A model generated the notes under the pieces. That model searched no databases, was not told the DNA's origin, and saw only the letters and a list, made by a program, of their open reading frames with translations. A stretch of DNA of 64,000 nt, from NCBI GenBank assembly GCA_021816895.1, contig JAKAWW010000001.1, forward strand, positions 1 through 64,000, written 5' to 3'. Each line of letters starts with the position of its first letter. Positions within the stretch are counted from its first letter, which is position 1. The position numbers and the translations under genes were made by a program. Source of the stretch: Microcaldota archaeon. Its GTDB lineage: Archaea > Micrarchaeota > Micrarchaeia > Micrarchaeales > Micrarchaeaceae. Positions 8,122 to 38,841 of the stretch are shown in pieces.

Positions 8122-9117
8122 GTGAAGTTAGATTTTGATCCAAAAAAGAATATAACTACTTTAGATCACTTTATAATGCCACTTAACATAAATCATAGAA
8201 TAAAGGATTTGTTTGTTGTTAGAAGGATAGTAAAGAATTGGTATGATGTGCTGCTTTTTAGAGTAGGCTTGAAGAAACCTGGATTCGTAATGCAGCTTCG
8301 TAACGGCAAAAAAATAGAAATAAAAAAACCCAAAGATTATTTTTCATTTTGGGAAAGTGGAAAAGGCCAACAAGAGGTACTCAAACGAGGGGGGTTTTAT
8401 CATTCTGTTAAAATAATTGAGAAAAGCAAAATTATAAAATTCAAATTCGGCAATAAATTATTAAGATTTCATTATGATTCCAAAAAGCAATTAAGTAACA
8501 CATTATGGATGATAAGAGAGCAATTTATAGAAGAACAATATAATTGGCTTGATGTAAAAGATAGGGTAATTATTGATATTGGTGCGAATATAGGGGATTC
8601 AGCAATTTACTTTGCTTTAAAGGGAGCAAAACATGTTTATGCGTTTGAACCTTACCCTTATTCGTATGAGCTTGCTACATACAATATTGGATTAAATAGA
8701 TTGGAAGATAAGATAACAATATTGAATGAGGGATGTGGTAGAGAGAAAGGAAAAATAAAAATAGATACCAGCTATAAAAATGTCGGCAGCACAGATTTAA
8801 AGAATTTCAAAAATGGAACTAATATAGATATAACAACCCTAGGTGAACTAGTTAAAAGATTTAACATCAATGATGGAGCGGTATTAAAGATAGACTGCGA
8901 AGGTTGTGAGTATGGAGTTTTACTAGGGGCACGAAATTCAGATCTAAGAAGATTTATACAGATACAGATAGAATACCATTATGGGTACTTGAACTTGAAA
9001 AGAAAACTTGAAGACATAGGATTCAAAGTAAGTAGAACATTACCAGAGCATATCATAGATTCAGAAATAGAAAATAAAAAAATGTTTGTTGGGCTTATTT
9101 ATGCCGAAAGAGGCTAA
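8122..9117 (+). CDS. FkbM-family SAM-dependent methyltransferase
   Basis: 331 residues from a GTG start; no ATG fits the promoter position. The SAM-binding core is VIIDIGANIGDSA (near 153), then VYAFEPYPYS, and VLKIDCEGCEYGVL near residue 255, the FkbM signature. FkbM enzymes O-methylate sugars or small molecules, so in this glycan region it probably methylates a surface sugar. It is paralogous along its whole length to the gene at 20186, sharing L-D-x-x-x-P-x-x-x-R-I near the N-terminus and the EEQYxWLD block. AT-rich compared with flanking core DNA. Confidence 0.88.
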   Translation: MKLDFDPKKNITTLDHFIMPLNINHRIKDLFVVRRIVKNWYDVLLFRVGLKKPGFVMQLRNGKKIEIKKPKDYFSFWESGKGQQEVLKRGGFYHSVKIIEKSKIIKFKFGNKLLRFHYDSKKQLSNTLWMIREQFIEEQYNWLDVKDRVIIDIGANIGDSAIYFALKGAKHVYAFEPYPYSYELATYNIGLNRLEDKITILNEGCGREKGKIKIDTSYKNVGSTDLKNFKNGTNIDITTLGELVKRFNINDGAVLKIDCEGCEYGVLLGARNSDLRRFIQIQIEYHYGYLNLKRKLEDIGFKVSRTLPEHIIDSEIENKKMFVGLIYAERG

Positions 9118-32741: not shown

Positions 32742-32760
32742 TTTGGGGTTGCTTGGATAT
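32742..32760. repeat. att-like scar matching tRNA-Trp 3' end
   Basis: tttggggttgcttggatat matches 38706-38724 (the tRNA 3' end plus two flanking bases, same orientation) at 17 of 19 positions. The next bases differ. A match this close is unlikely by chance in 64 kb. It is read as the outer end of an old integration that brought in the kinase-like gene at 32830. Confidence 0.5.
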
Positions 32761-32829
32761 GGTCTTTACGCGGGAATTGGGGGTTGTATGCTTAAATATA
32801 CATTATGATGTATGCAGACAAACAAAAAT

Positions 32830-33906
32830 CTAAAGCTTTTCAGCAAAATGGTTAAACACCTGTTGATATATACGCAGCATATGTTTAAAGTATTTCTTGC
32901 CTTCAGAACTACCCCAATATTGACCGCTGCCAAGATCGCCTACTATAATACCTATCGCTCTCTCAGTCAGAAGGAAATTCATTTTTCGTTCGAAATCCTC
33001 ATCTCTTTTGACAATCGGTATCATTTTATAGATGTTAACCCATTTTTCAGTATAATCTATCACTTCATCAGCAGTATAGCTATTTCCCTTTATGTTTAGC
33101 AAATTAAACCATATATTGTATGCTAAATCAGACCACTGCAATCTATACCCCCAAAGTATGTTTGAGGATAGTTTGTACGTTCCATCATCTAGTTTGAAGA
33201 TGTGCTGCTGCGTCAATTCCCTGTGCATAAACTCGATTTTCATTCCTGGTACGTATCTTGCTGCAATTGGGTAGAATCTAATCAAATAAGGTGCATAATC
33301 TTCAAATCGAAGTCTTCCTTTAGCCTCTGCATTTTTACGCCATTTTTCAACTGCATTAATTACGGCAGATAAAAGACTAGCATCATTTAATTGAGCATTA
33401 GAGTATATGTTGAACTTCTCTAGTTTTATCCATGGTTTGGTGATCGCCTTTGTCTTATACTCTTGATAAAATCTAGCAAAATCTTTCATTTGTGCGCTAG
33501 TGGCAAAAGGTAGGCTGTATATGTGTGGCGCATTAACAAACTCCATTATAAAGAAACCGTAGCCTCTTTTTGCATTCCATTCTTCAGATTGATAGATTGT
33601 TGGCGCATGAATGATCCTACTTTTATTTTGTTGCTCGAATCTTTTTATGATTTCAACTTCTGAAGACTCTAGCCTTAAACCTTGTATCTTCAAGACTGCG
33701 GGTTTTGCTTTATAGGTACCTTTAAGTAATATACTTCCAGTTACAGGTTTTGCTCCATTGGTATAGATTATTTCTCCTCTGAATATTTCCTTTTCTCGTT
33801 TGAAGCCAGTTTTGTTTAAAATTTCATTAAGCGTTTCTTTCTCATCATATGCGAGAGCATTTGGGTGTTTCTTTTCTTCAATTTTTATGCTGCTAAGCAT
33901 CTCCAT
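32830..33906 (-). CDS. Phosphotransferase/kinase-like protein with altered active site
   Basis: 358 residues from the ATG at 33906. The TATA box (tttatatat, 33925-33933) puts the transcription start there, ruling out 33972. A kinase-like N-lobe has KPAVLKIQGLRL (Lys) and FFIMEFVNAPHIY (hinge). The catalytic loop position reads FMHRELTQQHIF, where H-x-D-x-x-x-x-N is expected (Asp to Glu, Asn to His). The metal-binding Asp position reads KLSSNILWGYRLQWSDLAYN. So the fold is recognisable, but catalysis is doubtful. Flanked by att-like sites at 32742 and 34014; its AT-rich composition fits imported DNA. Confidence 0.55.
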   Translation of the reverse strand: MEMLSSIKIEEKKHPNALAYDEKETLNEILNKTGFKREKEIFRGEIIYTNGAKPVTGSILLKGTYKAKPAVLKIQGLRLESSEVEIIKRFEQQNKSRIIHAPTIYQSEEWNAKRGYGFFIMEFVNAPHIYSLPFATSAQMKDFARFYQEYKTKAITKPWIKLEKFNIYSNAQLNDASLLSAVINAVEKWRKNAEAKGRLRFEDYAPYLIRFYPIAARYVPGMKIEFMHRELTQQHIFKLDDGTYKLSSNILWGYRLQWSDLAYNIWFNLLNIKGNSYTADEVIDYTEKWVNIYKMIPIVKRDEDFERKMNFLLTERAIGIIVGDLGSGQYWGSSEGKKYFKHMLRIYQQVFNHFAEKL

Positions 33907-34013
33907 AATAAGAGTAGAAAAGAGATATATAAATAGTTTATTGGGTGCCCTATTGAAAGGTTCATATCTCATACAGTCGACAGACTACTCCAATCATCGA
34001 CAAATTTACTGTC

Positions 34014-34033
34014 TGGGGTTGCTGGGATTTGAA
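34014..34033. repeat. attR: 20-bp copy of tRNA-Trp 3' end
   Basis: Identical to 38708-38727 over 20 bases in the same orientation (minus-strand reading TTCAAATCCCAGCAACCCCA: T-loop, T-stem and acceptor 3' strands plus discriminator). Sequence on both sides then diverges. On the minus strand it is preceded by ATGCAGGCAGCGA (34046-34034), the start codon and first codons of a gene whose remainder lies beside the tRNA at 38438-38707. Confidence 0.88.
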
Positions 34034-34111
34034 TCGCTGCCTGCATGGAAACACCGCTTTTGGTTCAATAATAATTAGGGTTTAAGGTATTTAATAAGGT
34101 GGGTTCAGGGG
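34014..34111. repeat. att-proximal repeat, copy 1 (with 35037-35133)
   Basis: About 98 bases here and at 35037-35133 are strongly similar, including cttttggYtcaataat and a 23-base run from 34077 identical in both. Read on the minus strand, the repeat carries a TATA-like ttattaaata about 48 bases before the ATG at 34046, so it looks like a promoter-start-codon unit joined to an att core. Two related elements, or two rounds of integration, would leave such a pair. Confidence 0.8.
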
Positions 34112-34145
34112 AAATACTCCAGTTATTAAAAATTAAATCGATAAA

Positions 34146-34715
34146 TCAAAATGGTTTATCTCCAATTCTTTCTTTTACCATGTTGCAGATTATAGGATAC
34201 TTATCTTCTAAGAATTTCCTAGCTTCATTGTAAGTGAGTGTTCTAAATGGTATTACCGTAAATCTCTCTTTTAAGGTCGTTCTATAAAACTTCTCTGCTT
34301 TCTCAATAAAATTATCTCGTGCTGATTTATTTATTACCAAAATTGGTTCATATTCAGATGAAGTAGAATATATCTTGTCAGCTATAGTTATCACACCCTC
34401 ATCTAAATCCAGTTTGCTTAGATTTTCTGTATCTAGTATTAAAATTAGCTTCTCCAATATCTTTACGAACTTATAAGCACCAGCAGTTTTATCACTCAAG
34501 TTAAATTTCTCAATGAACTTATTGTAGCCTGTTTTAGAACATATAGCAACGTCTAAAGAGGGGTTATCTGTTTTCTTTTCTATTATGAATCGCATTAAAA
34601 ATCTACAATCTTTTATCTCTTTAAATCTATCTAGTGTGAATTTTGGATACGATCTAAAGGTGTCATGGAAAAAAGTATGATGAAGTACTAACAACACCTC
34701 CTTTTGATTTGACAT
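34146..34715 (-). CDS. Hypothetical protein of element gene pair
   Basis: 189 residues, Lys/Phe/Ile rich. KEVLLVLHHTFFHDTFRSYP at the start, LDVAICSKTGYNKFIEKF in the middle and RTLTYNEARKFLEDKYP near the end. No Walker, PIN or PD-(D/E)xK set that I can place with confidence. It lies 36 bases after the 69-residue gene in the same direction, so the two form a two-gene operon filling the 1-kb unit between att copies at 34014 and 35037. A toxin-antitoxin or defence pair is possible from context alone. Confidence 0.5.
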   Translation of the reverse strand: MSNQKEVLLVLHHTFFHDTFRSYPKFTLDRFKEIKDCRFLMRFIIEKKTDNPSLDVAICSKTGYNKFIEKFNLSDKTAGAYKFVKILEKLILILDTENLSKLDLDEGVITIADKIYSTSSEYEPILVINKSARDNFIEKAEKFYRTTLKERFTVIPFRTLTYNEARKFLEDKYPIICNMVKERIGDKPF

Positions 34716-34751
34716 TAAATCCCGTAACCCAAATAGAATTTTGATAGAAAT

Positions 34752-34961
34752 TTAGCTCTTTTTACCCAAATTAAAGAGGTACTTTAATGGATCGCCATCT
34801 ATCTTTTCTATTTCATAAACAGGTAATGAATTTACCCTTGTGGTAATTACAATTAAGTCATTATCCTTAATGTCTTTATATTTTTCAAGGGCAGCTTCTC
34901 TAGCTCTGCCCTGTAAGCTCTTGAACTTCTTTATTTCACAATCAGTATTTTTATAAGCCAT
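34752..34961 (-). CDS. Small hypothetical protein, first gene of element pair
   Basis: 69 residues, charged (MAYKNTDCEIKKFKSLQGRA, then KYKDIKDNDLIVITTRVNSL). Start supported by GGTGAT six to eleven bases before the ATG and a TATA-like agatttaaatag near 35020. Repeated agatatct/atatct motifs lie between TATA and start and could be an operator. Size and position before a larger partner resemble an antitoxin or immunity gene; no family recognised. Confidence 0.5.
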   Translation of the reverse strand: MAYKNTDCEIKKFKSLQGRAREAALEKYKDIKDNDLIVITTRVNSLPVYEIEKIDGDPLKYLFNLGKKS

Positions 34962-35036
34962 TTTATATCACCATAATATCTATAATATCATTAAACCATT
35001 TAGATATAAAAAGATATCTATTTAAATCTTAATCTT

Positions 35037-35056
35037 TAGGGCTGCCGAGATTTGAT
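35037..35056. repeat. Degenerate internal att copy
   Basis: tagggctgccgagatttgat aligns without gaps to the 20-bp core at 15 of 20 positions. On the minus strand it is preceded by ATGCAAGCGAGCA (35069-35057), the same distance and frame as at 34014, giving MQASNQISAALKIKI and a stop. The flank out to 35133 matches the flank of 34014. It therefore marks the boundary between two tandemly integrated units. Confidence 0.7.
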
Positions 35057-35309
35057 TGCTCGCTTGCATAAAAACACGCTTTTGGCTCAATAATGCTTAG
35101 GGTTTAAGGTATTTAATAAGGGTGGGTTCGGGGATTTTTAGTTTAACAGCCTTATAGTAAAGTATATATTATTTTATTCTGATAATATCTTTACAAAATG
35201 CGAATGGCTATACGCTATACAAAATTAGCTGCGTTTTCTGGGTGCAAGGTTTAAAGGCTTAATCTGCTTATGTATTGTTAGCGTAGACTATAATCTATGG
35301 TGGTTGATT

Positions 35310-36767
35310 ATGGAAAATACACTCTATTATGGAGATAATTTAGAGATACTTAGAAAATATATTAAGGACGAAAGCGTTGATTTGATTTATTTAGATCCAC
35401 CTTTCAATTCTAAAGCAAACTATAATGTACTTTTCAAAGATGAAAGTGGCGAATCGAAGGCCCAAATACAAGCCTTTACAGATTTCTGGCATTGGGACGA
35501 AGAATCAGCAAAGACTTATGATTACTTAGTAACAAATCCGAATGTACCTGCTAAAGTATCTAACTTAATTTCTGCTTTGCATAGTTTTCTAGGACAAAAT
35601 CAAATGAGTGCATACCTGGTAATGATGACAGCCAGATTAATAGAGTTACATAGGGTGCTTAAGAATACAGGCTCCTTATACCTTCATTGCAACCCAACTG
35701 CAAGCCATTACCTTAAGATAGTCTTGGATGCTATATTCGGAGAAAAGAATTTTAGAAACGAAATCGTTTGGTGCTATACAGGACCAAGAAAATCTACAAG
35801 AGCGTTTGCAAAAAAGCACGATATAATATTTTTTTATACAAAATCTGATAGCTATTTCTTCAAAGAACAAAGAATATCTCATAAAAGTGGTGTTCACAAT
35901 ACTGGTCAGGTATTTGATTCAGATAAAATACGAGACATACGTATAAAAGAAGATTTAGAAAAGAAAGGTAAAGTTTTAGAGGATTGGTGGGTCGATATTT
36001 GGGCAACAGAAAGATATAGAAAAGAGTTATTAGGATATGATACACAAAAGCCTGTCGCATTATTAAAACGTATTATCCAGGCCTCAAGCGGTGATGGTGC
36101 AGTAATTTTAGATCCATTTTGCGGTTGTGGAACTGCGATAGATGCTGCCGAGAATCTGGGACGCAAGTGGATAGGTATAGATATAACACACCTAGCAATA
36201 AATCTAATAAAAAGAAGGATAAAAGAAAAATACCCTAATTGCAAGTTTGAAGTTATCGGTGAGCCAAAAGATCTTGAAGGTGCCAAAGATTTAGCATTAA
36301 AAGATAGGTATCAATTTGAATGGTGGGCATTGTCTCTTATAGACGCGAGGCCTGCAAATGATAAAAAGAAAGGAGCAGATCAGGGAGTTGATGGCATTAT
36401 ATTGCTGCAAAATCCTAATATGAAAGAACCGATAAAAGCGTTGGTGCAGGTAAAAAGCGGGCATGTAAAATCTGATATGATAACTGCACTTAAAGGGGCT
36501 ATGGAAAGAGATAAAGCAAAATATGGGATATTTATAACGTTGGAAGAACCTACACAACCAATGGTAAAAGAAGCTTTAGAGAAAGGATTTGAGACCGAAC
36601 CATTAACAAAAGAAAAGATACCTAAAGTTGAAATAATAACAATAAAAGCATTGTTAGACGGAAAAATTCCTAAATTACAGCAAGTTTATAATAAAATAAA
36701 TATAACATACCAAAAAGCTGAAAAGGATAAAACCGAGGAGGAAAAAGGTTATTATAAAAGGTTTTAG
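35310..36767 (+). CDS. DNA methyltransferase fused to Mrr-like nuclease domain
   Basis: 485 residues from the ATG at 35310 (ribosome site GGTGG). The N-terminal beta-class N4/N6 methyltransferase has catalytic LIYLDPPFNSKANYN near residue 28, and the SAM motif ILDPFCGCGTAIDAAENLG with WIGIDIT near 267-293. After about residue 335, YQFEWWALSLIDARP leads to KKGADQGVDGIILL and ALVQVKSGHVKSD. That is a PD-(D/E)xK pattern (D, then Q-x-K) as in Mrr-type endonucleases. One polypeptide may thus both methylate and cut DNA, as in type IIG-like systems. No separate specificity subunit is near. AT-rich; the only long plus-strand cargo gene of the element. Confidence 0.85.
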   Translation: MENTLYYGDNLEILRKYIKDESVDLIYLDPPFNSKANYNVLFKDESGESKAQIQAFTDFWHWDEESAKTYDYLVTNPNVPAKVSNLISALHSFLGQNQMSAYLVMMTARLIELHRVLKNTGSLYLHCNPTASHYLKIVLDAIFGEKNFRNEIVWCYTGPRKSTRAFAKKHDIIFFYTKSDSYFFKEQRISHKSGVHNTGQVFDSDKIRDIRIKEDLEKKGKVLEDWWVDIWATERYRKELLGYDTQKPVALLKRIIQASSGDGAVILDPFCGCGTAIDAAENLGRKWIGIDITHLAINLIKRRIKEKYPNCKFEVIGEPKDLEGAKDLALKDRYQFEWWALSLIDARPANDKKKGADQGVDGIILLQNPNMKEPIKALVQVKSGHVKSDMITALKGAMERDKAKYGIFITLEEPTQPMVKEALEKGFETEPLTKEKIPKVEIITIKALLDGKIPKLQQVYNKINITYQKAEKDKTEEEKGYYKRF

Positions 36768-36796
36768 CATAACTAAGATATGAAGGCGAGAAAATT

Positions 36797-37009
36797 ATGC
36801 CAAATAAAGAAAATTCTTCTATTGAAGAAATTATAGGTACTGCTATTGCAATTATCGTTTTAGCTATATTAGTGTACGCGTTTTATATAATACCATCTCC
36901 CATACAACCCTATTTTCAAAGCATTATAAATGAGATATTAATAGGTTTTGCTATAGTGGGGGCTGTCGGCTTGGCTTTATTAATTTTAAAATTGCTTGAT
37001 TTCTTCTGA
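36797..37009 (+). CDS. Small two-helix membrane protein
   Basis: 70 residues. A charged start (MPNKENSSIEE) and two hydrophobic helices (IIGTAIAIIVLAILVYAFYII and ILIGFAIVGAVGLALLILKLL). It follows the methyltransferase-nuclease after 29 bases and is probably cotranscribed. No family recognised. It ends seven bases from the convergent integrase operon. Confidence 0.6.
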   Translation: MPNKENSSIEEIIGTAIAIIVLAILVYAFYIIPSPIQPYFQSIINEILIGFAIVGAVGLALLILKLLDFF

Positions 37010-37015
37010 AGGTGA

Positions 37016-37582
37016 TTAAAAATCCATATTAACCTCTTCCAATTTCTTCTCTTTATCTATGCTTTCAATCATTATATTTTGGATTTTTCTAAGCTCCTTT
37101 AGATTTTTACCTAAATAATATCCAAATAAGAATAGTGGTACAAAAAATAGCGTTATACCACCTAAAATTATAAGTAAAAAGTTTTGTGGAATTTTAGCAT
37201 TAAATACTGCATAAAGGAATCCATAAAACAATAAGATTGTCAAATCAAGGGCGAGCAAAGAAACCCCACTCCAAACAAATTTGTTCGCTCTAATATTAAT
37301 GTGCAATTTTAATATTTCTAATTTCTTCTCTAAATTTTCTTCCTTATGTTGTTCTTTTGTTTTGTTTATAAGCTCAAACAGTTTTGGCACCCTTGATTCA
37401 ATATATTTATCAAAGAAATTAAGTAGAAATATAATCACCATTGTAAAGATAGAGAGTGCACCAACTATTAATGTAGTTAAGATTGTTAAATTTAGGAGCA
37501 TAAACACCACATTAAATGCCAATATCTCAATTAATATGAATGTGCTAAACTTTATTTTATTTCTTTGTTTTATTGGCTTCAT
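37016..37582 (-). CDS. Membrane protein with central coiled coil, downstream of integrase
   Basis: 188 residues from the ATG at 37582, immediately after the integrase stop (37587-37585); a GTG at 37588 overlaps it. Two N-terminal helices (LIEILAFNVVFMLLNLTIL, IVGALSIFTMVIIFLLNFF) are followed by a charged coiled-coil stretch (KTKEQHKEENLEKKLEILKL). Two more helices and a charged tail follow. Together with the att-split ORF and the integrase it forms a three-gene operon. Function unknown. Confidence 0.62.
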   Translation of the reverse strand: MKPIKQRNKIKFSTFILIEILAFNVVFMLLNLTILTTLIVGALSIFTMVIIFLLNFFDKYIESRVPKLFELINKTKEQHKEENLEKKLEILKLHINIRANKFVWSGVSLLALDLTILLFYGFLYAVFNAKIPQNFLLIILGGITLFFVPLFLFGYYLGKNLKELRKIQNIMIESIDKEKKLEEVNMDF

Positions 37583-37584
37583 TT

Positions 37585-38457
37585 TCACACCCTTTTCTTC
37601 AATGAAGCTAACTCGCTCAAGGCCATGCTGTCTATTACGTCATAGACCTCCTGCTTGCTGGTGCTTATGTAAATGCTGGTTGTGCTAGGATCAACGTGCC
37701 TTGCAAACCTGCTGGTAAGGATGAGATTACCATTAGCCTGCTTTGCAAACCTAGTTATCGCATAATGCCTTAGGCTGTGCGTTGTGAGCCTGTGCAGCCT
37801 TCTAGGCCTCCTGCCCTGCTGCTCATTGCTAGTGTCATAAACCTCATCCAAGCCTGCAAGCTCAAGATAGTGCCTGAACCTGTTCCTTACATAGTTAGGC
37901 TCAAGGTAAGGCTCGATTCTGCGGCTCTTTGCAGCATCCCTAAAGAATATGTAGCCCTTAGCCTGCTCTATCTGGCTGGAATTGGCCTGAGCGAACTCCA
38001 CTAGCTCCTTGAACAATGGCAAAGGTATCCTTAGGCTGTCCAACAGCCTTGTTTTCTCTGTCCTTACTGTAAGTTCCCTTGTCTCAAAATCTATATCTTT
38101 TACATTCACTCTTATCACCTCTCCTATTCTTAGGCCAAGCTGAGCCTGAAAATTGAAAAGAAGCCTGAATTTTGGATCGTTTATAGCTCTGAAGAACCTC
38201 TGAAGCTGCTCCTCTGTGAAGCCTTTATTTATAGTTCCGTACTTAGGGTTTCTCCTTCTGTGGAATTTTGTTATATAATACTGTCTTATCATGTGGGTAA
38301 GGTCTTCTATTTCATGCTTTGCCAGATGCGGCAATAAGCCCTGTATGTACCTCTTTGCCTCTGTGGGTGCAGTTTTGTGTGCAGATTCGTGTTCGGATTC
38401 CTGCAAATATCCGAACCCAGCTTTCGCTAACCTCTGGTTATTCTTCATGGCTACCAC
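37585..38457 (-). CDS. Tyrosine recombinase (integrase)
   Basis: 290 residues from GTG at 38457, or 287 from ATG at 38448. Catalytic residues can be placed: Arg in LGLRIGEVIRV, Lys in RTEKTRLLDSLRIPL, His-x-x-Arg in HSLRHYAITRF, His in SRFARHVDPSTT, and Tyr in SIYIS. All core residues appear present, so it may be active. N-terminal helical DNA-binding domain (RYIQGLLPHLAKHEIEDL). Its start overlaps the end of the att-split ORF, implying coupled translation. It lies 250 bases from the tRNA it presumably targets. Confidence 0.9.
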   Translation of the reverse strand: MVAMKNNQRLAKAGFGYLQESEHESAHKTAPTEAKRYIQGLLPHLAKHEIEDLTHMIRQYYITKFHRRRNPKYGTINKGFTEEQLQRFFRAINDPKFRLLFNFQAQLGLRIGEVIRVNVKDIDFETRELTVRTEKTRLLDSLRIPLPLFKELVEFAQANSSQIEQAKGYIFFRDAAKSRRIEPYLEPNYVRNRFRHYLELAGLDEVYDTSNEQQGRRPRRLHRLTTHSLRHYAITRFAKQANGNLILTSRFARHVDPSTTSIYISTSKQEVYDVIDSMALSELASLKKRV

Positions 38458-38707
38458 TCTTGTACTTATTTTGAGCCTCTGAGCGTGTATCCGAATCCTT
38501 AAAATCGTTGAGCTTCATCTGGCTTAGTACTCTGTCTAATTTATCTAAAACCTTATTGAGCTTCACTATCGCCTTTGCGTGGGCCTCTATTTGCTTGGAG
38601 TAGTAGTTGAGCTGGTTCTGGGTGGTGAGCTGGGAGTCCGCTATGCAGCTAGAATTAGCGTATATGCCTTGTATCCGAACCCTTTCTACTTTCTCTAAAG
38701 CAAAGTT
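38438..38707 (-). CDS. att-split ORF, codons 12-100 (start codon is at the other end of the element)
   Basis: Open frame running from the tRNA boundary to TAA 38440-38438, encoding N-F-A-L-E-K-V-E-R-V-R, then a helical AKAIVKLNKVLDKLDRVL and a charged tail. Read back through the tRNA it meets a stop without any ATG, GTG or TTG. If 34034 is joined to 38707 through the 20-bp core, the frame gains MQAAIQIPATP and becomes a complete 100-codon gene whose end overlaps the integrase start. Codons 5-11 are the att core itself. The helical, charged product might be a recombination directionality factor or small regulator (inference). In the integrated state it is probably silent. Confidence 0.72.
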   Translation of the reverse strand, partial: NFALEKVERVRIQGIYANSSCIADSQLTTQNQLNYYSKQIEAHAKAIVKLNKVLDKLDRVLSQMKLNDFKDSDTRSEAQNKYKSGSHEE

Positions 38708-38841
38708 TGGGGTTGCTGGGATTTGAACCCAGATTTGCAGGTTACTTCATTGCTCAAACTTCCAGATCCTCATCATCGCTATTGCTCAATTAAGGTTAAA
38801 CATCTGGAGCCTGCCGCGCTGCCAGGTTACGCAACAACCCC
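38708..38841 (-). tRNA. tRNA-Trp (CCA anticodon) with 61-nt intron
   Basis: Acceptor GGGGTTG pairs with CAACCCC, discriminator A at 38708, CCA not encoded. D-arm GCG/CGC, anticodon stem GCAGG/CCTGC, loop C-U-C-C-A-G then intron. T-arm CTGGG-TTCAAAT-CCCAG. Exon 1 is 38804-38841 and exon 2 is 38708-38742, giving a 73-nt mature tRNA. The intron is at the usual position 37/38. The 3' 20 bases are duplicated at 34014 by element integration, and the tRNA stays complete. Confidence 0.93.
38743..38803 (-). ncRNA. Box C/D guide RNA within tRNA-Trp intron
   Basis: The intron holds a perfect box C (GATGATGA, 38777-38770), a guide GGATCTGGAAGT (38769-38758) and a D'-like TTGA (38757-38754). ATCTGGA pairs with UCCAGAU of the pre-tRNA anticodon region. 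Counting five bases upstream of TTGA lands on the G opposite C34, the known 2'-O-methylation site in archaeal tRNA-Trp. A second TTGAGCAAT (38789-38781) gives a candidate box D eight bases before box C if the intron circularises. Box C' is weak (ATGAAG). The arrangement is known from euryarchaeal tRNA-Trp introns. Confidence 0.72.

Follow-up and report, generated by a model that had tools for sequence, protein, structure and literature searches.

The window, a 64,000-nucleotide stretch of a 0.93-Mb Micrarchaeota genome (928,770 bp, 35 tRNA genes), carries an intron-bearing tRNA-Trp(CCA) gene behind which small accessory units are stacked. The features of this region are as follows.

32743..32762, minus strand: degenerate tRNA-Trp-type 3' end, armless, possibly the oldest att site
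32830..33972, minus strand: kinase-like gene (assigned by inspection), 380 aa as called, no confident family match
34014..34033, minus strand: outer att core, Trp type, exact, identical to the last 20 nt of tRNA-Trp
34034..34115, minus strand: P' arm of unit A, a diverged copy (82% to the arm at 35037), with an ATG at 34046-34044
34146..34715, minus strand: unit A gene 2, 189 aa, homologs in G017 and G048 only
34752..34961, minus strand: unit A gene 1, 69 aa, 62% homolog in L139; accompanies the 189-aa gene in G017
35037..35055, minus strand: inner att core, tRNA-Pro(CGG) type, one mutation
35057..35134, minus strand: P' arm of unit B, with TATA-like CTTATTAAATACCTTAA (by inspection) and an ATG at 35069-35067
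35304..36767, plus strand: unit B cargo, N6/N4 DNA methyltransferase-Mrr-type nuclease fusion (PF01555, 2.4e-42; PF04471, 8e-10)
36797..37009, plus strand: unit B cargo, 70-aa protein, distant homolog (34%) in the G004 tRNA-Pro element
37016..37588, minus strand: unit B cargo, 190-aa protein without a family match
37585..38457, minus strand: tyrosine integrase, 290 aa, PF00589, XerA-like (Pfam 1.4e-14; NCBIfam XerA_Arch 6.9e-17, below cutoff)
38438..38708, minus strand: P arm and element-borne part of a small ORF (...SGSHEE*) overlapping the integrase start
38708..38727, minus strand: att core at the tRNA, Trp type, the tRNA-Trp 3' end; 20-nt exact pair with 34014-34033
38708..38841, minus strand: intact tRNA-Trp(CCA), the integration target (Rfam RF00005, 48 bits; ARAGORN -i, same span, intron misplaced)

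ARAGORN missed the tRNA-Trp gene without introns and called it Arg(cct) with introns; its identity rests on Rfam. The last 20 nt of the gene are TTCAAATCCCAGCAACCCCA, and the second copy at 34014 matched at 20/20 positions and 3/3 diagnostic bases. It was the sole displaced tRNA 3' end found in a survey of the 35 tRNA genes of this genome. The intact tRNA and its displaced 3' fragment bracket an integrase-bearing segment, as expected of a tRNA-targeted integrative element. The earlier note had described this exact pair, a common orientation of all fragments, and similar flanks of approximately 98 bases at 34014 and 35037. The pair (20 identical bp) and the orientation were both borne out, and the flanks were similar over approximately 110 bp (82% identity, E 4e-21). 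Its description of three stacked tRNA-Trp 3' fragments needs revision: the fragment at 34014 is an exact Trp end, that at 35037 derives from tRNA-Pro(CGG), and that at 32742 is weaker, with 3 mismatches in 20. The tRNA-Trp 3' flank was not conserved among the relatives compared, and neither the kinase-like gene nor unit A was found at tRNA-Trp in any of 60 relatives.

The 3' ends of tRNA-Trp and tRNA-Pro(CGG) are identical at 16 of 19 positions. The tRNA-Pro(CGG) end, TGGGGCTGCCGAGATTTGA, matched at 35037 with 1 mismatch in 19 (chance expectation in the window, 0.01 matches). Over 20 nt, this core differed from Trp at 5 positions and from Pro at 2, and it carried the Pro base at all three positions that distinguish the two; we therefore rejected its assignment as a degenerate tRNA-Trp end. 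The distal cores thus differ in origin, Pro(CGG) at 35037 and Trp at 34014. A single arm that was duplicated could not carry cores of two origins, so the Pro identity strengthens the case for repeated integration and adds a target switch to the history. A single element spanning 34014-38708, integrated once and carrying an internal segmental duplication of its arm, would agree with the exact outer pair enclosing both units and with the 82% similarity of the arms. However, we consider it very unlikely because duplication and drift do not yield the cores of two tRNAs (Trp, 20/20 and 3/3 diagnostic; Pro, 3/3 diagnostic), or an arm at 35037 that is nearer to the arms of tRNA-Pro elements (90-95%) than to its neighbour.

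Element B (35.06-38.71 kb) bears the integrase and restriction-modification cargo and lies directly behind tRNA-Trp. Its integrase scored 54.7 bits against PF00589 (Pfam gathering cutoff, 27.1), and R, HSLRH, RHVDP, and Y of the catalytic pattern R..HxxR..Y were recognised by inspection; its 61.9 bits for XerA_Arch (NCBIfam) lie below the equivalog cutoff of 220. The protein was 94-97% identical to the integrases of four relatives, all at tRNA-Pro(CGG), and the window Trp copy and these four formed one clade (support 100/100). Apart from B, the clade to which its integrase and arm belong was found at tRNA-Pro(CGG) only. The fusion protein, combining a DNA methyltransferase and a nuclease, is a predicted single-chain restriction-modification enzyme with a 58% homolog in the G004 tRNA-Pro element; a methyltransferase with an HNH protein occurs in G033 and G011. 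Unit A (34.03-35.04 kb) sits behind B, lacks an integrase, and ends with a separate copy of the element arm. No integrase remnant was found within it, and a single-sequence fold of its 189-aa protein gave no usable model (pLDDT 41). The cargo GC of units A and B is 30-32% versus 46% for the genome.

The Pro core at 35037, together with integrase kin that all lie at tRNA-Pro(CGG), points to a Pro-type element that switched to tRNA-Trp beside an older unit. We consider it likely that the region arose through the accretion of small tRNA-targeting integrative elements, with Pro-type B switching to tRNA-Trp and integration disconnecting the integrase start. An A-type element would have entered tRNA-Trp first. 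B, with its tRNA-Pro-type attP, would then have taken tRNA-Trp as a near-cognate target, and its Pro core would have stayed as a fossil between B and A. A may later have lost its integrase or have been moved in trans. Both the insertion order and the crossover point are inferred; for a Pro core to stay between B and A, the strands must have been exchanged close to the CCCCA end of the tRNA. Had A been Pro-type and B Trp-type, exchange in the T-loop would have led to the same sequence, but this alternative is a poorer fit to the integrase tree.

The genome's own tRNA-Pro retains 18 nt of P-arm sequence (ATGCTTTGTTTCAGAGAG), probably a scar left by a Pro element that was lost. Several positions distinguish this remnant from the P arm at tRNA-Trp, so a direct jump within the genome is at most a possibility. 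The scar would also suit a chimera produced by homologous recombination of tRNA-Pro and tRNA-Trp elements instead of near-cognate integration, a model that has a precedent in the suicidal integrases of Thermococcales (PMC8371274). However, recombination would need a long-range exchange and loss at tRNA-Pro, where the neighbourhood of the tRNA and a primase-like gene is intact, and we regard it as unlikely.

Among approximately 45 integrase homologs examined, most immediately followed a tRNA 3' end and shared its strand. The tRNA-Pro site of the clade was empty in G005 and occupied in G103, which belong to the same genus and share the same flank (ATGCTTAGGTTTTT). At the tRNA-Pro of G033, a second P arm is joined to the P' arm of the first element; judged by this junction, the arrangement is a real natural tandem. 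Repeated site-specific integration at one tRNA, as previously proposed, is well supported by the exact attL/attR and by two arm copies that each have their own tRNA core. The arms and integrase at other tRNAs in relatives, the pair of empty and occupied sites, and the G033 tandem provide further evidence. Three integrases without an annotated tRNA were rejected as intact attP forms: L084 adjoins a tRNA-Glu fragment, and both L091 and L113 lie at genes or fragments of tRNA-Leu. No free circle of the element was found in IMG/VR viral contigs (by protein or arm pattern) or in PLSDB plasmids.

The P arm contains two GGNTTCGGATACA direct repeats. The P arm/small-ORF stretch is 271 nt long and free of stops in 6/6 copies. 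Differing codons were 57% synonymous in the frame of the small ORF versus 15% in the other two, and the differences by codon position were 58/69/182; on these counts, the small ORF overlapping the integrase start is under coding selection. The distal arms have a Met at exactly -32 in all six cases, with the frame open through Pro or Trp cores. The arm common to 34014 and 35037, approximately 100 bp, has a TATA-like box and an ATG; once the element ends are joined, the ATG in the P' arm of unit B opens a frame that continues across the core into the small ORF, and G033 has an intact 107-aa att-spanning ORF (L060:18-341). In the clade of the window, integration splits this small upstream overlapping ORF, and the integrase ORF itself is whole. 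Ten elements with an att pair represent other subfamilies. When their ends are joined, the integrase frame (often MKLE-like) starts at an in-frame ATG of the far arm, and nine of the ten lack this start on the integrated side. The reading frames suggest that the far arm holds a promoter-like box, putative and TATA-like by inspection, and the first codons of the integrase operon. These would meet the operon only in the circular or tandem form; integration would thus disconnect the integrase from its own start and favour the trapping and build-up of units.

The earlier division of the region into three units holds for A and B, and is suggestive for the kinase-like unit (32.8-34.0 kb), whose outer att is degenerate and armless. 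The true start of the kinase-like gene is probably near 33906 because homology begins at residue 22-23. Its coupling (ATGA) to a leader peptide of the 34014 arm was dropped because homologs start at these residues and a TATA-like box precedes that start. The fragment at 32743 may be an old att site. No P' arm was found beside it, either by eye or in a BLAST search with the arm, and in this it differs from 34014 and 35037; its membership of this element family therefore cannot be established. We see a substantial possibility, somewhat below an even chance, that the fragment and gene are ordinary chromosome unrelated to the array, in agreement with the armless, mismatched fragment, the gene's own TATA-like box, and the lack of a displaced tRNA copy near the homologs in G020. 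However, the match did not recur in unrelated places, as the earlier note had asked: it was the only one with up to 3 mismatches beyond the tRNA and the vicinity of 34014 on both strands of all 928,770 bp, and it has the correct place and orientation. The unit also has a GC content that looks foreign (35.5%, lowest 3%), and the gene was found in 1 of 60 relatives, G020, in which both copies lie within 35 bp of tRNA 3' ends. Membership of the kinase-like unit in the array is plausible.

The tRNA-Leu array of G003 consists of an integrase unit, a one-gene unit (ATPase), and an AbiE-like operon, with exact tRNA 3' ends at the boundaries of each. The layout of this array and of the window resembles integron arrays, in which attC-bearing cassettes without an integrase are served by one integrase in trans. 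Unit A and the kinase unit, each one gene or operon, might have been mobilised in this manner by the integrase of the tRNA-proximal unit, stacking as cassettes. We hold this to be rather doubtful: integrase loss after insertion accounts for an identical layout, the G003 units have no common arms, and no cassette was seen moving between arrays.

Similar to SSV-type (type I) suicidal integrases (SSV1, pTN3, and pT26-2), the Micrarchaeota elements target tRNA 3' ends. Their att appears to fall in the 5' coding portion of the integrase operon, so that integration would part the start from the catalytic portion; how the att core is translated depends on the target, and targets switch within the family. 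SSV-type integrases have the PF16795 (Phage_integr_3) catalytic domain of superfamily 25_02 (PMC8371274). In contrast, PF16795 gave no match in the window integrase or nine relatives at the thresholds used; these proteins have PF00589 only and are XerA-like, and we therefore do not class them as SSV-type members. Furthermore, the Micrarchaeota elements lose a putative promoter and a few to approximately 22 codons, not a whole N-terminal domain. An att within the integrase gene is present in other subfamilies, whose integrase ORF starts in the far arm, whereas the clade of the window splits only a separate small ORF overlapping the integrase. As in pNOB8-type (type II) elements, this clade has a tRNA 3' core and an intact catalytic integrase ORF after integration; it differs in that an upstream overlapping ORF and a promoter-like arm are split off. 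In ICEclc, the integrase promoter Pcirc is restored in the circle. The far-end promoter-like box of the present elements likewise would meet the integrase only in the circle, but the far arm also gives the start codon and the coding frame crosses the att core. Krupovic et al. (2019, PMC6563490) described archaeal tandem arrays in which elements have integrated at a single site. The window similarly shows one site reused to give stacked units; however, its internal core comes from another tRNA, recording a target switch.

Recorded changes of integration target are rare, and here an old tRNA core adjoins a new one. Because the integrase and its kin at Pro sites are up to 97% identical, site switching becomes testable. 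A 2021 review that covers archaeal tyrosine recombinases (PMC8371274) assigns self-splitting integrases a single origin, within the PF16795 superfamily. The PF00589/XerA-like identity suggests an independent origin, and if Micrarchaeota do have a PF00589 family of this layout, self-splitting integrases would have originated a second time. We lean slightly towards a family of tiny tRNA-targeting elements, widespread in Micrarchaeota, with self-disconnecting integrases that evolved independently of PF16795. Their attP would lie at the first codons of the operon, each insertion would take away promoter and start, and their nearly one-way insertions would accumulate as arrays of defence genes behind tRNAs, with the Pro and Trp 3' ends serving as stepping stones for target switches that are kept as core fossils. 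Units stacked behind tRNAs appear to supply these small genomes with restriction-modification and other defence-type genes.

The 5S-MT195 neighbourhood was dropped as proof of an inversion between tRNA-Pro and tRNA-Trp because its 5'-side position is unexplained by att exchange. MT195 lies near tRNA-Pro, on its 5' side, in G033, G103, and G005.

The tRNA-Trp gene was detected by ARAGORN solely in intron mode and under the wrong label. The two tRNA genes considered here are:

38708-38841, minus strand, intron-containing tRNA-Trp
G000:C1:97996-98068, tRNA-Pro(CGG) of the same genome (G000)

A displaced, same-strand 3' fragment was seen for only one of the 35 tRNA genes found in the genome, tRNA-Trp. 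Its last 20 nt are repeated without change at 34014, which confirms the exact pair (34014/38708) described in the earlier note; the similar flanks reported for 34014 and 35037 were also recovered (~110 bp, 82% identity). The copy at 32742 has 3 mismatches in 20, but a search of both strands over all 928,770 bp gave no further match of this quality. In contrast, the proposal that 35037 is a tRNA-Trp end was not borne out. Its core, TAGGGCTGCCGAGATTTGA, is unlike Trp at all three diagnostic positions and differs by one change from tRNA-Pro(CGG). Judged by these positions, the 35037 core is a tRNA-Pro(CGG) 3' end. Since the 34014 core matches tRNA-Trp perfectly, the neighbouring arms record two different target tRNAs. 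The tRNA-Trp intron (38745-38805) contains a box C-like TGATGA; such a box is known from archaeal tRNA-Trp introns that guide 2'-O-methylation.

Integrases 94-97% identical to that of the window are located at tRNA-Pro(CGG) in four relatives (G004, G011, G033, and G103, a further Micrarchaeota MAG and the same record as locus L132). These and the window integrase form a clade with 100/100 support, and the integrase tree requires four separate origins for Trp targeting. Identity to the arms of the tRNA-Pro elements was 90-95% for 35037 and about 79-83% for 34014. In G103 and G005, which share a genus and an identical flank, the tRNA-Pro site is occupied in G103 and empty in G005. At a contig edge in G033, the P' (distal) arm of one element is joined to the P arm (the tRNA end) of a second, a natural tandem at tRNA-Pro. 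Assembly errors are possible in MAG-based relatives; nonetheless, the pattern was repeated across several independent records. Directly 3' of the window genome's own tRNA-Pro, ATGCTTTGTTTCAGAGAG matches exactly the opening 18 nt of the P arm in the G004 Pro element, but no element follows. This sequence was not found at the empty tRNA-Pro sites of most relatives, and is probably the scar of a lost Pro element.

In the Pro/Trp clade, the core end is preceded, at a distance of exactly 32 nt (tRNA sense), by a Met codon in all six distal arms. Once joined to the P arm, this Met is in frame through the Pro or Trp core with an att-spanning ORF of ~100 aa, which ends in SGSHEE and overlaps the integrase start. 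Synonymous changes (57% vs 15% in other frames) and differences by codon position (58/69/182) show that this ORF is under coding selection. The joined form occurs naturally in the G033 tandem (L060:18-341), and inspection revealed a TATA-like box upstream of the distal-arm ATG. For ten elements from other subfamilies, it is the frame of the integrase itself that runs open across the tRNA core to a far-arm ATG (often MKLE/MELE, about -65), and no ATG was available on the integrated side in 9 of the 10; with random arms, 9-20% of cases yielded such an ATG within 30 nt. Since the start is split off in the integrated form, integration probably silences the integrase operon.

Suicidal integrases are described as archaeal, characterized by PF16795, derived from one origin, and capable of changing their target tRNA (PMC8371274); tandem integration is already known (PMC6563490). 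The Micrarchaeota elements resemble them in layout; however, at the thresholds used, the window integrase and nine relatives match PF00589 only, and the nearest named family of the window integrase is XerA, with a score below the cutoff. On this comparison, the window integrase is suicidal-like in its predicted working, yet is not assigned to that class.

Cargo varies across elements, whereas the integrase is constant. Unit B (35.06-38.71 kb) carries an MTase-Mrr fusion with a 58% homolog within the G004 Pro element, while the G033 and G011 elements carry an MTase and an HNH nuclease. Unit A (34.03-35.04 kb) is a pair of short genes that also occur together in G017. The kinase-like gene is present in 1 of 60 relatives (G020), in two copies, both ≤35 bp from a tRNA 3' end. 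GC content was 35.5% in the kinase unit, 30.1% in unit A, and 31.9% in the unit B cargo vs 46.4% for the genome. We infer the insertion order of the units, the crossover position, a candidate promoter in the distal arm, and integrase loss from unit A.

Other loci were also noted. In G003 (L117), tRNA-Leu(tag) (8878-8965) is followed by exact 3'-end copies at +1815, +3047, and +4611, which bound three units (one with the integrase, one with a single ATPase gene, and one that is an AbiE-like operon); this array is more cleanly cassette-like than that of the window. A 40-nt arm (TCAAATCCCGTCATGCCCG...TACTGCAATGACGG...) is nearly the same in L114 (G037), L179 (G104), and L180 (G068), and is followed by a Trp core in G037 but by a Pro core in the other two genomes, which likely marks a second switch between Pro and Trp targets, this time in a different integrase subfamily. 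The MT195 gene, at 30.3 kb in the window, is 3-5 kb from tRNA-Pro in L060 (G033), L132 (G103), and L177 (G005), accompanied in G033 by 5S rRNA; therefore, the chromosome has been rearranged between the tRNA-Pro and tRNA-Trp neighbourhoods. In the window's genome, an integrase C-terminal fragment (G000:C1:667502-667755; 51% to the window integrase) directly behind tRNA-Leu(tag) is a decayed element, and two tRNA-Gln(ctg) genes with identical 3' cores, spaced by 1.4 kb (G000:C1:411556-413015), may be the outcome of an insertion.
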